The position numbers and the translations under genes are program-made. A stretch of 41,998 nucleotides of DNA from positions 1-41,998 of the forward strand of contig JACRCE010000050.1 of assembly GCA_016213015.1 (NCBI GenBank), written 5' to 3'. This stretch comes from Deltaproteobacteria bacterium (GTDB lineage Bacteria > Desulfobacterota > GWC2-55-46). Every line of letters begins with the position of its first letter. The stretch's first letter is position 1. Below the pieces are notes generated by a model. It ran no database searches and was not told where the DNA came from. It worked only from the letters and a program-made list of their open reading frames with translations. This document shows, piece after piece, positions 23,480 through 31,313 of the stretch.

Positions 23480-24274
23480 TTACCCTTTGACTCTGCGGCC
23501 GGATGTCAGATAATCAACGGCGCACACCGCAACCTTGACCGCGTTTTCCTCGCCCGCCTTGAGCGATGCGTTTGTGATCCTGCCGGTAGACCCTCTGTTC
23601 ACGACGCCTGTAATGCACCCGCCCTTGAGCGCGCCATTTCCCATTGACGCCGTGAGCGTCAAGACCGCGGATGACTCCATCTCGTAGTTCAATACGTTCA
23701 AACCGCGCAGTTCATCGGTCAACCCGCGAAGCCGTCTTAATCGGAGCCGCTGGAACGAATCTTTTCTTTCCTCCCCGGGATAGAAGGCGTCGGTCGAGGC
23801 CGATATGCCTGCGTGCCAGCGCACCCCGGCCATTTCAGCGCCTTCCATGAGCGCCGCGACTATTTCATGGTGAGCGATCGCCGGGAACTCTATGGGCGCG
23901 TAATGCGTTGAAGCGCCGTCGAGCCTGACGGCCCCCGTCGTTATGATGCAGTCGCCGTTTCGTATGTATCTTTGAATCGCCCCGGTCGTGCCGACGCGGA
24001 TGAACGTCCTGATTCCGAGTTTTGCAAGCTCGTCTATCGCTATGCAGGCCGACGGGCCGCCTATGCCGGTTGAGGTAACGACTATCCTTTTACCGTTGAT
24101 TTTAGAGGAACAGGTCGTAAATTCGCGTTTTGAGGCGAGAGCGATGACCGGCGCGCCTGAGCGTTTTGCTATCGCCCTTGCGATTAGCTCAACCCTCCCG
24201 GGGTCCCCGGGAAGAAGGGCGATCCGCGCGTTGCCAAGCTGCGCCTTTGATATATTGAGATGATATGCCTTCAT
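23480..24274 (-). CDS. udp: Uridine phosphorylase / nucleoside phosphorylase family
   Basis: LLPGDPGRVELIA, IRVGTTGAIQ, NYEMESSAVLTL motifs. Confidence 0.87.
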   Translation of the reverse strand: MKAYHLNISKAQLGNARIALLPGDPGRVELIARAIAKRSGAPVIALASKREFTTCSSKINGKRIVVTSTGIGGPSACIAIDELAKLGIRTFIRVGTTGAIQRYIRNGDCIITTGAVRLDGASTHYAPIEFPAIAHHEIVAALMEGAEMAGVRWHAGISASTDAFYPGEERKDSFQRLRLRRLRGLTDELRGLNVLNYEMESSAVLTLTASMGNGALKGGCITGVVNRGSTGRITNASLKAGEENAVKVAVCAVDYLTSGRRVKG

Positions 24275-24283
24275 CTTGTAATC

Positions 24284-27200
24284 CTATCCCGTCTGCGGAT
24301 TGGTCTTCAAGGGTTTTTCTTTTCGTCCGTGAAAGACCGCCTTCCTTGCCTCCTCGACCATGAGCAGTATTATCGGAAACGAGGCAAGCAGCGCCCATTC
24401 TCCGGCCTTCAGGCCGCCAAAACCGAATACCTCCCTGATAAACGGCGCATGGATAAGGACAAGCGTAAGCGCGGCCTCCATTGCCACGCTTGCAAGCAGA
24501 AATCTGTTCGTGAAAAAGCCGATGCGAAATACCGAGGCGTCCTCTGACCGGCAGGCGAATACGTTGCCTATCTGGCTTGCGACGATCCCGGCAAAGGTCA
24601 TGGTGGTGGCCGCCGCGTATATCGACGCATCAACGGAAAACGCCTCGCCCGGGACCCAGCCCCTCATCCAGTACGCTAAAAAGAAACCGCCCATGCACAG
24701 CAGCGCCTCGATGGGCCCGAGGAAGAGATAGGCGCGGAGGAGCGTCTTCAAGTCAAGCAGCCTTTGTCCCTTTGGCCTGGGCGGCCTGTTCATCGCCCCT
24801 TTTTCAGGCGGCTCCTTCCCAAGGGCCAGGGCGGGAAGGATGTCCGTGCCGAGGTCCACGGCCAATATCTGCATGACCGTCAGGGCAAGCGGGACCTTGA
24901 ATATTACAAAGGCGATGAACGGGATTATCTCCGGTATGTTGCTTGCGAATATGTACGTTACGAACTTTTTTATGTTGGCGTACACGGCGCGCCCTTCCCG
25001 TATCGCGTCAACGATGGACGCGAAGTTGTCGTCAACAAGGACTATCTCGGCGGCCTCCTTTGCGGCGTCCGACCCCCTCATGCCCATTGCGACGCCTATA
25101 TCCGCTTTTTTAAGCGCGGGCGCGTCGTTCACCCCGTCTCCCGTGGCGGCAACCACCTCTCCGTTATCCTGAAGGGCGCTTACCACCCTCAGCTTGTCCT
25201 TAGGCTCCACGCGCGCGAAGACGCACTCTCCTTTTTCAAGAACGCGGCGCAAATCGGCGTGGGTCATGGCCGTAAGCTCCTCGCCGGTTATCACGCGAGC
25301 GTCATGGGCGATGCCTGCCTCCCTTGCTATCGCCTTTGCCGTAAGCCCGTAATCGCCCGTTACCATGACCACGCGGATGCCCGCGCAATGGCATTCGGCA
25401 ACCGCCTGCTTGACCTCCGGCCTCGGCGGATCCAACATGGCGATAAGGCCGATGAATGTAAGACCGGCCTCCACCTCGTCGGCCTTATATTCATCCGCGC
25501 GCTCAACCGTCTTGTACGCCACGGCAAGAACGCGGAGCCCTGTTGAGGCAATATCGTCGTTCTCTTTTATCACGCCGGCCTTTGCATCGTCGTCGAACGC
25601 GGCCTCTCCCCCATGCTTAAACTGCTTCACGCACAGCCTTACAATCTCGTTCGGCGCGCCTTTCACAAAGGCGATGAGCCTGCCGGTCTCGATTGGCGGC
25701 ATCCATTCGGGCTTGCGCCTCGCCTCGTGCACGGTTGACATCATCTTGCGTATCCGTTCAAATGGCAGGTGAGCAAGCCTCGGCAGGTCTTTGCCGAGAG
25801 CGCCGAGGTCTAAGCCGCTCTTGACCGCGACGCAAAGCAGGGCGCCCTCGGTCGGGTCGCCCGTGATCGTCCATTCACCGGCCTCTTTAGAACCTCCCCC
25901 TTTTTCAAAGGGGGACTGAGGGGGTTTAATGGCCGCGTTGTTGCACAGCGCGCCTCCTGTCAGGAGAAGATGCGCCCCAAGGCTTGAGAGCGCGGCCTCT
26001 GATAGATGCTCGTTGTTTTGAAGGAGGCGCCCAATCGGGTCATATCCGTTGCCGGTTACGTCAATTGACGCGCCGGAGACGAATATCTTTTGAACGAACA
26101 TGCGGTTTTGAGTAAGCGTGCCGGTCTTGTCCGTGCAGATTACGGTGGCGCATCCGAGGGTCTCAACCGCCGACAGTTTTTTTACGATGGCCTTCTTCTT
26201 TGCCATGCGCTCGACGCCCATTGCAAGCGACAAGGACACGGTGGGCAAAAGTCCTTCAGGCACGTTTGCGACTATTATGCCGACGGCGAATATGAAGCTT
26301 TCGGCAAACGAGAGACCGGCAATGCCGTAGCCAAGAAGGAAGAACAACACGCCAAGGCTTATCGCTATTGCCGTAACGGCACGGGTGATGCGAACCAGTT
26401 CCTTTTGAAGCGGACTCGCCTCGGGTTTTATGGCCTGAGTGAGATAGGCCACCTGACCTATCTCCGTGTCCATACCGGTTGCCGTTACGACGGCTACTGC
26501 CGCGCCGGAGATCATTGTAGTGCCCGCGAATACGAGATTGGGCATCTCGGTCCAGATAAAGGCGCTACCGTCAACAACGGGTTCGGCCAACTTATATACC
26601 GGAGCGCTCTCCCCGGTCAGCACGCTGTTGTCAACGCGCGCGTCATCCGCTGAGATAAGCCTGCCGTCCGCCGGTATCGCGTCTCCCTCTCCAAGCCTTA
26701 TCAGGTCTCCCGGCACGATGTTTTCGGCGTCCACCTCGACGTCCCTGTTGTCCCTTATCGCTATAACCTTCCTCGGCAGGAGTTTGGAGAGCGCCTCTAC
26801 CGCGGACTCGGCCTTGTACTCCTGCCAAAAACTGAATGCCGCGTTTATGAATATTACGAGGAATATCGCCCATCCGAGCGCGCTCATCCCGGCAACGAAC
26901 GCCATTGCCCCGCCAGCCCATAGAAGAACGGCAAATAGATTCAAGAACATATTGCGAAGGAAGTCCTTGCCCGCGACCCAGACTCCCTTTTCCAAGCGTC
27001 TGATGGAATTTGCCCCGGCAATGGCGAGACGCTTTGCCGCCTCGGCCTCGCTCAAGCCGGACTCCGATGTGTCAAGATCGGAAAAGACTTCTTCCCGGTT
27101 CAAAGGCACGTAATAGGAACGCGCGGCCCCCTCGGCTTTGCTCACCTCGTTTCTTATTTCACCTTCGCTCCTTGCCTCGAGTATGGCGTGATTGAACGCC

Positions 27201-27571
27201 TTGTTCCTCAGCATCCCCTCGAGTTTGGAGAGCAGTTGCAGATGGATGCCGCTCTCCTTCATGGGGGAGACGATAAGGAAGAAAATCCTTGCCCTTCTTC
27301 TCCGCCCCTTGTCCTGCACCGCCCTTTTGAATACGGCAAGGCCGATTGCCGCGTCCTGCACCTCCTCGGACAGGCAGTGGAATATGGCCGAATCCGTGCC
27401 GGACAGAAGACCGTCAACGGTCTCATGGCTTTTAAGGTCGCAGACGATGCCGTGCCCTGCCTTGGCGTCTGCCGACCCTGCCAGATGCGAGGCGAGCATA
27501 TCGGCAACCTCCGCATGATTTACGGCCTTCATGTCGAGGATAACGCATTTGAGAAGGTCAGATACGTTCAT
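24284..27571 (-). CDS. P2-type (Na,K-ATPase-like) cation-transporting ATPase with N-terminal PTS EIIA-like domain
   Basis: DKTGTLTQNRM, VANVPEGLLPTV, SNIPEIIPF, DLGTDILPA; residues ~1-145 read as a PTS EIIA type-2 fold with AIFHCLSEEV at the phospho-His site. Confidence 0.88.
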   Translation of the reverse strand: MNVSDLLKCVILDMKAVNHAEVADMLASHLAGSADAKAGHGIVCDLKSHETVDGLLSGTDSAIFHCLSEEVQDAAIGLAVFKRAVQDKGRRRRARIFFLIVSPMKESGIHLQLLSKLEGMLRNKAFNHAILEARSEGEIRNEVSKAEGAARSYYVPLNREEVFSDLDTSESGLSEAEAAKRLAIAGANSIRRLEKGVWVAGKDFLRNMFLNLFAVLLWAGGAMAFVAGMSALGWAIFLVIFINAAFSFWQEYKAESAVEALSKLLPRKVIAIRDNRDVEVDAENIVPGDLIRLGEGDAIPADGRLISADDARVDNSVLTGESAPVYKLAEPVVDGSAFIWTEMPNLVFAGTTMISGAAVAVVTATGMDTEIGQVAYLTQAIKPEASPLQKELVRITRAVTAIAISLGVLFFLLGYGIAGLSFAESFIFAVGIIVANVPEGLLPTVSLSLAMGVERMAKKKAIVKKLSAVETLGCATVICTDKTGTLTQNRMFVQKIFVSGASIDVTGNGYDPIGRLLQNNEHLSEAALSSLGAHLLLTGGALCNNAAIKPPQSPFEKGGGSKEAGEWTITGDPTEGALLCVAVKSGLDLGALGKDLPRLAHLPFERIRKMMSTVHEARRKPEWMPPIETGRLIAFVKGAPNEIVRLCVKQFKHGGEAAFDDDAKAGVIKENDDIASTGLRVLAVAYKTVERADEYKADEVEAGLTFIGLIAMLDPPRPEVKQAVAECHCAGIRVVMVTGDYGLTAKAIAREAGIAHDARVITGEELTAMTHADLRRVLEKGECVFARVEPKDKLRVVSALQDNGEVVAATGDGVNDAPALKKADIGVAMGMRGSDAAKEAAEIVLVDDNFASIVDAIREGRAVYANIKKFVTYIFASNIPEIIPFIAFVIFKVPLALTVMQILAVDLGTDILPALALGKEPPEKGAMNRPPRPKGQRLLDLKTLLRAYLFLGPIEALLCMGGFFLAYWMRGWVPGEAFSVDASIYAAATTMTFAGIVASQIGNVFACRSEDASVFRIGFFTNRFLLASVAMEAALTLVLIHAPFIREVFGFGGLKAGEWALLASFPIILLMVEEARKAVFHGRKEKPLKTNPQTG
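25891..25930. repeat. Palindromic CCCCCTTTTTCAAAGGGGG(ACTGAGGGGG) repeat inside the ATPase reading frame
   Basis: cctccccctttttcaaagggggactgaggggg; translated as PPQSPFEKGGG. Confidence 0.85.
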
Positions 27572-27654: not shown

Positions 27655-27706
27655 GATTCCCTATTAAAGTTTTTTGGCCCACCTTTTTTACAAAAAAGGT
27701 GGGTTG
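27655..27706 (+). repeat. Hairpin repeat copy 1 (GATTCCC..AAAGTTTTTTGGCCCACCTTTTTTacAAAAAAGGTGGGTTG)
   Basis: 12-bp perfect stem 27678-27689/27692-27703. Confidence 0.9.
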
Positions 27707-27743: not shown

Positions 27744-28400
27744 GTGAAGAAGATAAAGGTATACATAGCCGATGATCATCCGGTGTTGAGGGACGGCATC
27801 AAGGCGGTCTTCCAAGGACACGACAACTACGTCGTCGTTGGAGAGGCCGACACCGGCACTCAGGCGCTCAAGGAGATAATCTCCATCAAGCCTGACGTCG
27901 TGATAATGGACATCACCATGCCGGGCTTGAGCGGCATAGAGGCCGCCAAGCGCGTAACCGAGGAGTTGCCCAAGACAAAGGTGGTCATATTGTCCATGCA
28001 CGCGGACGTATATCACGCCATTGAGGCGTTCAGGGCGGGCGCTACGGCTTACGTGCTCAAAGACTCCGCGCCAAAGGAGCTTCTCAACGCGGTGAATAAA
28101 GTAATTGCCGGAGAGAAGTTCGCAAGCCCTGCCGTGGCCGAACAACTCCTCAACGACTTTGTGGACATAGTGAAAAAGGATCACGGGAGCGACCCGTTCG
28201 ATGCGCTCACCGCAAGGGAGAGAGAGGTCTTGAGGGCTATTGCCGACGGCGCCACCAGCAGGGAGATGGCTGAGAAGCTCTTTATCTCGGTGGCAACCGT
28301 AAAGAGCCACAGAAATAACCTTATGAAGAAATTGAGATGCAACGACATGGCCGGCCTGATAAAGCTCGCCATACGCAAAGGTCTGGTCAAGCCTGAGTAG
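27744..28400 (+). CDS. NarL/FixJ (LuxR-HTH) response regulator
   Basis: KVYIADDHPVLRDGI, DVVIMDITMPGLSG; HTH LTAREREVLRAIADGATSREMAEKLFISVATVKSHRNNLMKKL; GTG start. Confidence 0.95.
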   Translation: MKKIKVYIADDHPVLRDGIKAVFQGHDNYVVVGEADTGTQALKEIISIKPDVVIMDITMPGLSGIEAAKRVTEELPKTKVVILSMHADVYHAIEAFRAGATAYVLKDSAPKELLNAVNKVIAGEKFASPAVAEQLLNDFVDIVKKDHGSDPFDALTAREREVLRAIADGATSREMAEKLFISVATVKSHRNNLMKKLRCNDMAGLIKLAIRKGLVKPE

Positions 28401-29356: not shown

Positions 29357-29433
29357 CGGGGCGTGGCTCAGTCTGGTAGAGCACCGCGTTCGGGACGCGG
29401 GGGCCGGAGGTTCGAATCCTCTCGCCCCGACCA
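29357..29433 (+). tRNA. tRNA-Pro (anticodon CGG), CCA encoded
   Basis: CGGGGCG...CGCCCCGACCA acceptor; anticodon stem-loop CCGCG-TTCGGGA-CGCGG; T-loop GGTTCGAATCC. Confidence 0.95.
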
Positions 29434-29525: not shown

Positions 29526-30179
29526 TTACTCGACGGTTATCTTGCCCACCATGCCGCTGTGTATGAAGCAGATATAATAGTAATCGCCCGGCTTTTCAAA
29601 CTTGTACTCATAGCTCTTGCCCGGCTCCACGCTCGACGAGGATATTCCGCTCATGCCGATGAGCCTCATGGATGAGAAGATATGGGCTATCGAATCGTCG
29701 TTTATCCAACGGACGGTCTCGCCCTTCTTTATGATGACGTTATCAGGGACAAAGACGTTTTTCGTCGCTGCCGTGGCCTTAGGCAAACGCACCTCGTGCG
29801 CCCCGTTTATTGCTGACGATCTGACCGGGGATGAGAGCTTCGAGTTGAATATGGTCTTCTTCACCTCTACAAGCACGGCTGTGTCCCCGCTTACGTCCTT
29901 GTATTCGCGCGCCATCAGCTCGGCGATATAGAACTTGGCCTCCATCTCCTCCCTGCTGATCTTGGGCGCGGCTGCTTCAATCAGCAACGCCTTTATTTCA
30001 GCCGGTATCTTGGCCTTGTTGTCCTCGATTATCTGACTCATCTTTATCGCGTTGTTGCTCTCAAGCGCCTCTATGAAGCCTTTTACGATCTCGGAGTTCG
30101 CGCCGTATGACGGGTTGCCTGACGCAAAAAACAAGGCAAGGGCAAGGATACCGCCAATGGATAATCTCTTGAATTTCAT
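29526..30179 (-). CDS. Secreted protein with C-terminal cupredoxin (type-1 copper) domain
   Basis: start MKFKRLS with AAAGGAGG RBS; signal peptide; IAHIF...CFIHSGM copper motif. Confidence 0.85.
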   Translation of the reverse strand: MKFKRLSIGGILALALFFASGNPSYGANSEIVKGFIEALESNNAIKMSQIIEDNKAKIPAEIKALLIEAAAPKISREEMEAKFYIAELMAREYKDVSGDTAVLVEVKKTIFNSKLSSPVRSSAINGAHEVRLPKATAATKNVFVPDNVIIKKGETVRWINDDSIAHIFSSMRLIGMSGISSSSVEPGKSYEYKFEKPGDYYYICFIHSGMVGKITVE

Positions 30180-30460
30180 TGGATAGACCTCCTTTATCAA
30201 AAAATGGGAATATGGCTTGGCACTCGCGTATTTCGCAAGTATACAAAAAACAAAACAAACCCGCAAGTCTTAAATACCGTGAGCCGTGACCGTAAAAGGA
30301 TTATTTTTCACGACCATGTCTCGCGTTCTTTATCTTTTATCGGTACTAATCAAAATAACTTGAGACTTAAAATGACACAATAAACCCCTCACCACATCCT
30401 CCTTAAATAATGGAATTGCCCGTCACAGTCTTGCCCTACGTCTTTTACGGTCACGGTTCA

Positions 30461-30542: not shown

Positions 30543-31202
30543 CTACTTCTCCTCAACGGTTATCTTTCCTATCATGCTGCTGTGGATGAAACAGATATAG
30601 TAGTATTCGCCGGGTTTTTCAAACCTCGCCTCCCATTTCGAGCTTGGCTCGACCTTCGGCGAGGAGATCGCATCCGCGCTTATGAGTTTTAATGCGGAGA
30701 ATACGTGCATGACGGCGTCGTCGTTGATCCAGCGCACCGCCTCTCCCTTTTTAATGACGATGTTATCTGGAAGAAAGACGTTTTTCGACGCGCCCGTGGG
30801 CTTGGGTATCCTTACCTCTGCAACGCCGTTGGACAGTATCGGCCGGATAGGCGTCGAAAGCCTCGCGTTGAAGATTGCTTGCTTGACCTCAATAAGCAGA
30901 CCGGCCTCGCCCTTCGCGTCCTTGTATTCACGCGCCATTATCTCCGCGACGTTGTATCTTGCGTCCTTGTCCTCCTTTGAGATATCCGGCCTTTGAGCCT
31001 CGGTCAACAGCGCCCGCACCTCGTCCGGCACGCTGTACCTGCTTGTCGAGACCAACAGGCTCATCTCCTGCGTGTCGTTCTTCTCAAGCGCGTCTTTGAA
31101 TCTCTTCACAAACTCGGATTCGGCTGAATGGGCCACGCCGAACTGTAAAAAAAACAGTGCAACTATTGCCGCGATCCTGAAAAACATCGTTCCTGTAAGC
31201 AT
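30543..31202 (-). CDS. Secreted protein with C-terminal cupredoxin domain, paralogue of the adjacent gene
   Basis: start MLTGTMFF after GAGGAGG RBS; signal peptide; VMHVF...CFIHSSM. Confidence 0.85.
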   Translation of the reverse strand: MLTGTMFFRIAAIVALFFLQFGVAHSAESEFVKRFKDALEKNDTQEMSLLVSTSRYSVPDEVRALLTEAQRPDISKEDKDARYNVAEIMAREYKDAKGEAGLLIEVKQAIFNARLSTPIRPILSNGVAEVRIPKPTGASKNVFLPDNIVIKKGEAVRWINDDAVMHVFSALKLISADAISSPKVEPSSKWEARFEKPGEYYYICFIHSSMIGKITVEEK

Positions 31203-31313
31203 ATATACCTCCTCATGGAACAATCATGTTTTGATTAAAGTATAGCAGAAAAAGACCATGACCGTGAAAAAGAAGAAGATGGGGCAATATTCTTATTCGT
31301 CAGCCTTGGCGTT

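Follow-up and report, generated by a model that had tools for sequence, protein, structure and literature searches.

The stretch of DNA analysed here (the window) comprises 41,998 nucleotides of a contig from a Deltaproteobacteria bacterium, and contains a gene encoding a protein in which a phosphotransferase system (PTS) EIIA domain precedes a P-type ATPase. The features of this gene, and the gene downstream of it, are as follows.

24284-27571, minus strand: coding sequence of the fusion protein (EIIA type 2 and P2C-like P-type ATPase), ATG start, 1095 amino acids
27140-27550, minus strand: PTS EIIA type-2 domain, residues 8-144 (PF00359, E=4.3e-14; match to the PtsN fold)
27425-27427, minus strand: codon of His49, where the canonical active site has Arg (each fused row that covers the position has His or Arg)
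27377-27379, minus strand: codon of His65, the predicted phospho-acceptor (invariant in 27/27 fused EIIA rows and in 16/16 rows thinned to <70% identity)
27242-27244, minus strand: codon of His110, the second EIIA active-site His (invariant in the full and thinned alignments)
24332-27097, minus strand: P2-type ATPase, residues 159-1080, with A, P, N and transmembrane domains (Pfam domains; nearest solved sequences)
26246-26269, minus strand: TM4 cation-site segment ANVPEGLL, residues 435-442 (alignment to Na,K-ATPase; comparison of fused pumps)
26117-26131, minus strand: catalytic phosphorylation motif DKTGT, residues 481-485, with Asp481 (from the sequence; invariant)
24929-24943, minus strand: TM5 cation-site segment SNIPE, residues 877-881 (same basis as TM4)
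24842-24856, minus strand: TM6 cation-site segment DLGTD, residues 906-910 (same basis as TM4)
24563-24565, minus strand: codon of Asn1003 (TM8), equivalent to Asp926 of Na,K-ATPase (every listed fused row and the plain P2C-like rows also have Asn here)
23480-24274, minus strand: uridine phosphorylase gene, 9 nt downstream of the pump gene (PRK11178, 282.8 bits versus a cut-off of 262)

The open reading frame and the His65 codon lie where the original prediction had placed them, and its assignment of residues 1 to ~145 to an EIIA type-2 domain agrees with both a profile search and the predicted fold. The isolated domain scored 53.1 bits with PF00359, for which the curated cut-off is 27. The remainder, which had been read as a full P-type ATPase, carries the DKTGT motif and matches five Pfam domains (PF00690, Cation_ATPase_N; PF00122, E1-E2_ATPase; PF13246, Cation_ATPase; PF00702, Hydrolase; and PF00689, Cation_ATPase_C), all above their cut-offs. 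Cation_ATPase_N begins at residue 160, and the EIIA domain immediately precedes the actuator-linked segment. The fusion of an EIIA type-2 domain to a complete P2-type ATPase is genuine. An assembly artefact or frameshift was ruled out, since fusions of similar length that are 58-66% identical to this protein occur in more than 20 independent assemblies and both halves are under purifying selection, and reading of a ptsN gene through into the pump gene was ruled out by a separate ptsN in the same genome. In close pairs dN/dS is 0.10-0.19 for the EIIA domain and 0.10-0.26 for the pump, with dS near saturation in more distant pairs; values about equal to those of the pump half argue that the EIIA domain is in use. 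The original prediction cited no characterised example of such a fusion, and our literature search likewise found no paper joining EIIA and a P-type ATPase, although most subscription journals and InterPro lay outside the search and the absence is weak evidence.

Within the same family, order and class, many genomes encode full-length relatives at the above identity, and the named ones are 'Deltaproteobacteria bacterium' genomes from metagenomes. With a profile of fused EIIA domains, which gave more than 140 bits for the fused type and less than 100 bits for PtsN-type matches, hand counting found fused-type EIIA in 33 of the class's 63 genomes (family f1 accounts for 20, out of its 30 genomes, with 2 in f4, 3 in f8 and 8 in f11), including a few in which the contig ends inside the gene and the pump half is unseen. 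One further fusion (L076, genome G121) was among the matches listed from 395 genomes of the phylum. Four genomes of the 19-genome group around a deeper fusion, L040, contain a relative, three with an intact EIIA domain and one (L086) without the first part of the domain, the His65 region being absent from its frame. Relatives of L041, in another phylum, were found in 0/396 genomes by a search that had no positive control and says little. Two genomes carry two fused-type EIIA copies each (G444, on contigs C52 and C98; G443, on C111 and C152), one copy in each being in a shorter open frame, perhaps at a contig end. A tree built from the pump part places 26 fused pumps in a single clade (support 99/95), which persists when cyanobacterial and Streptomyces relatives are added (SH-aLRT 90), and all fused pumps fall on the P2C-like side. 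The nearest plain pumps sampled are encoded on cyanobacterial plasmids, are about 46% identical and have no EIIA domain. With the limited sampling, the tree is most simply explained by a single fusion event.

The AlphaFold model of residues 1-155 (27 family members; pLDDT 81, pTM 0.79) has as its best PDB matches solved structures of PtsN and EIIA-Mtl (2a0j, 3urr, 1a6j and 4gqx), at TM-scores of about 0.7-0.8. The full-length model is of modest quality (pLDDT 71, pTM 0.58) and its interface between EIIA and the pump or actuator is unreliable; its best structural match is Na,K-ATPase in the E1.3Na state. The fused domain did not reach the cut-off of the PtsN (EIIA-Ntr) equivalog model TIGR01419 (15.7 versus 138.7 bits). 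Eight columns (E50, A62, H65, P103, G108, H110, L114 and S115) are invariant in the 27 aligned EIIA rows, and His65, which had been proposed as the phospho-site, is among them. In the thinned set, with a mean identity of 46%, 10 of 155 columns are invariant and include both PTS histidines. For two named columns the chance of this is ~0.004, a figure that takes no account of common ancestry or of the generally stronger conservation of certain residue types. Cys66 is conserved in 13 of the 16 thinned rows. One relative (L025, genome G055) has an intact pump and an EIIA domain that lacks the C-terminal helices just past His110.

The active site of the window's own clade departs from the textbook form. 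Nearly all members of this clade have His at position 49; L028 has Arg there, as do the deeper fusions L040, L076, L087 and L089. In addition, 'IPH' has become 'IFH' (AIFH) in the window's clade, where the canonical Arg and Pro are both lost. The canonical Arg and the (G)xAxPH motif are absent from the window's EIIA domain and are canonical or near-canonical in the four deeper fusions, which retain an R...IPHAR or R...SFPHAR active site. Thus, the simplest view of the fused ancestor is that it accepted phosphate normally. The active-site Arg and the second His presumably have the roles in phosphoryl transfer that are known for EIIA-Mtl and PtsN, and with the canonical Arg and Pro lost, phosphoryl transfer could have been weakened or lost in the window's clade.

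The pump half had been assigned to the P2C Na,K-ATPase type, and this holds for the TM4-TM6 cation site and not for the family model or for one residue of the third Na+ site. By alignment, residues E327, S775, N776, E779, D804, T807, D808, Q923 and E954 of Na,K-ATPase have identical counterparts in the window's pump, where the site comprises E439 in TM4, S877, N878 and E881 in TM5, and D906 and D910 in TM6. T772 is replaced by Ile, and D926, of the third Na+ site, by Asn1003. The nearest solved sequences are Na,K-ATPase alpha subunits (504 bits). The best model is that of Na,K/H,K-ATPases (TIGR01106), at 582 bits versus a cut-off of 946, and the pump is therefore termed P2C-like rather than a Na,K-ATPase; the PMR1 (576) and SERCA (555) models score close to it. 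The Na,K-like pattern holds across the fused pumps, with L011 and L087-L089 as exceptions, whereas the unfused P2A-type pumps sampled from related organisms have a different, Ca2+-pump-like pattern. In L011, a member of the fused clade from f1, TM5 has 'HL' instead of 'SN'. The same change is seen in L087-L089, where it apparently arose independently and where DLGTD is also replaced by DLGTE; judged from these motifs, an altered ion or stoichiometry is possible. A plain P2C-like pump gene on plasmid p1 of Streptomyces fungicidicus (L108) has two K+-uptake genes of the TrkA family immediately downstream of it, which hints that pumps of this clade are concerned with K+. In the window's gene an in-frame palindrome, CCCCCTTTGAAAAAGGGGG, at 25896-25914 on the minus strand (residues about 551-560) inserts QSPFEKGG in a loop of the nucleotide-binding domain. 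The insert is found in no other aligned member, and L011 and L037 have different inserts in the same loop.

The genome contains the components for phosphorylating an EIIA domain, a point on which the original prediction was open to refutation: EI, HPr, HPr kinase and PtsN are present. They lie on contig C18 in a row that reads rpoN-like, hpf, ptsN, hprK, rapZ, EIIA-Man, EIIB-Man, HPr and EI, in which rpoN, hpf and rapZ were assigned by visual inspection of the sequence. The ptsN-like protein falls below the strict NCBIfam PtsN cut-off and is the only free EIIA type-2 protein found. A search of the genome for mannose-type EIIC (PF03609), the one EIIC family covered, found none, and the PTS that includes EIIA-Man and EIIB-Man (L045, C18) may therefore be purely regulatory. 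HPr was matched in 55 of 62 genomes of the class and in 28 of the 33 that have the fusion; the fusion genomes without an HPr match are G006, G019, G048, G060 and G062, and two of them, G006 and G048, have a completeness rating of 100%. EI is present in all six fusion genomes tested (6/6).

The PTS is already known to act on K+ transporters by way of free EIIA proteins, and on a sugar transporter by way of a fused EIIA domain. The K+/H+ antiporter YcgO is inhibited by unphosphorylated PtsN (PMC11808508), and PtsN also acts on TrkA and KdpD (PMC13104625). The window's domain shares with PtsN the EIIA type-2 fold, and control of K+ traffic by phosphorylation state is a feature of PtsN; however, PtsN is a free protein, whereas the window's domain is part of a larger protein, has a score far short of the PtsN cut-off and is encoded in a genome that also has a separate PtsN. 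Streptococci and lactobacilli have the transporter LacS, whose fused EIIA-Glc-like domain is phosphorylated by HPr, with modulation of transport (PMC10710835). The likeness lies in the fusion of a PTS EIIA-type domain to a transporter, phosphorylation being only predicted for the window's protein, but the EIIA-Glc-like domain of LacS is carried by a secondary sugar transporter, while here an N-terminal type-2 (Fru/Mtl/Ntr) domain is carried by a primary, ATP-driven ion pump. Among pumps, Na,K- and H,K-ATPases (P2C) share the TM4-TM6 cation-site residues and are the best PDB matches in sequence and fold; the window's pump differs in being bacterial, in its Asn at the Asp926 position, in its score below the TIGR01106 cut-off and in its N-terminal EIIA domain. 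The beta subunit is known from animal pumps. Plain bacterial P2C-like ATPases (Nostoc and Synechococcus plasmids, L106/L107; L090/L091) belong to the same clade, at about 44-48% identity and with the same cation motifs, but lack an EIIA domain, the open frame ahead of the pump being only 23-53 residues long.

The conservation of the fusion suggests that metabolic state may directly control the pump. We propose, with a probability of about one in two, that the protein is a P2C-like pump of monovalent cations and that HPr~P-dependent phosphorylation of its own N-terminal, cytoplasmic EIIA domain gates it, an arrangement resembling that of LacS but built on a primary pump. EI would charge HPr from phosphoenolpyruvate (PEP) and HPr~P would then phosphorylate His65, with the assistance of His110 and His49. 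Since the actuator-domain segment follows immediately after the EIIA domain, the phosphorylation state of the latter would permit or hold back the movements that the actuator makes in the E1-E2 cycle. Most likely, by analogy with unphosphorylated PtsN and EIIA-Glc, which inhibit their partners, unphosphorylated EIIA (at low PEP) would throttle the pump and phosphorylated EIIA would release it. In Pseudomonas putida the phosphorylated form is active on KdpD (PMC13104625), and the direction of the switch is therefore not to be taken for granted. The ions moved would most likely be Na+ and/or H+, exported, with K+ taken up. The more specific proposal that a PEP-dependent phosphorelay covalently gates a primary Na+/K+-type pump, and that the rebuilt active site (Arg to His, Pro to Phe) has kept phosphate transfer, is advanced tentatively, at somewhat less than even odds. 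The original interpretation, a phosphorylation-gated or metabolite-responsive Na+/K+ or H+/K+ pump, is partly supported, with phosphorylation, gating and the ion as predicted elements.

The rebuilt active site also lends itself to a different reading, in which the EIIA domain of the window's clade is no longer phosphorylated and acts as an allosteric sensor of a cation or small ligand through His49, His65, His110 and often Cys66. The replacements at the active site are confined to this clade, three histidines and, for the most part, Cys66 are conserved, and an HPr match is absent from some fusion genomes, all of which would suit a sensor. However, the invariant set contains exactly the catalytic pair of PTS histidines, the alternation of His and Arg at position 49 (as in L028) is more easily explained by a positive charge for phosphate than by a metal ligand, Cys66 varies, and PTS genes are nearly always present. 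We consider a sensor of this kind unlikely, though it is the most probable of the alternatives to phosphorylation-dependent gating.

Two readings appear improbable. The pump may export a different cation, Ca2+ or another, the Na,K-like motifs being misleading, in which case control by EIIA could still apply. The closeness of the Na,K, PMR1 and SERCA scores and the missing Asp926 are consistent with this, but ANVPEG, SNIPE and DLGTD follow Na,K-ATPase and are unlike the motifs of the unfused P2A-type pumps of related organisms, and every fused pump falls on the P2C-like side of the tree. By a slight degree the least probable is that the EIIA domain is merely a structural or docking module, for dimerisation or partner binding, with a fossil active site. 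Its model was also matched by Foldseek to the cytoplasmic domains of band 3 and other SLC4 proteins, which have the same fold without PTS function and likewise place an EIIA-like fold on an ion transporter, although they are eukaryotic, lack PTS phosphorylation and belong to a different transporter. A fossil site would be expected to drift, yet His65 and His110 are invariant at the mean identity given above.

If phosphorylation-dependent gating is correct, the fusion would couple a primary ion gradient directly to carbon and energy state, would tie membrane cation gradients to the PEP/pyruvate state, and would constitute a regulatory input to a P-type ATPase of a kind not described in the literature searched. 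It would also offer a one-protein system for studying how EIIA phosphorylation alters transporter conformation, and the canonical and rebuilt active sites form a natural series for asking whether the EIIA Arg is dispensable.

The surroundings of the gene were considered as a functional clue and rejected: uridine phosphorylase, DsrE2, and CheR with a histidine kinase recur only in f1 and indicate no single function. The 9-nt gap to the uridine phosphorylase gene is as originally described, and such a gene is nearby in four other genomes of the same family; since it is conserved in only part of the family, it says little on function. Riboswitch control, for example by c-di-AMP, was also rejected, the only Rfam match in the window being to tRNA, and the tRNA gene lies at 29357-29430 on the plus strand. 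A palindrome, CCCACCTTTTTTGTAAAAAAGGTGGG, at 27678-27703 is located between the pump gene and a divergent NarL/GacA-type response-regulator gene (27744-28400, plus strand), which is transcribed away from the pump gene. Two tandem paralogues at 29526-30266 and 30543-31223 on the minus strand, which fall in one cluster, have, as read by eye, a cupredoxin-like end segment, KNVFxPDNxxIKKGExVRWINDD...
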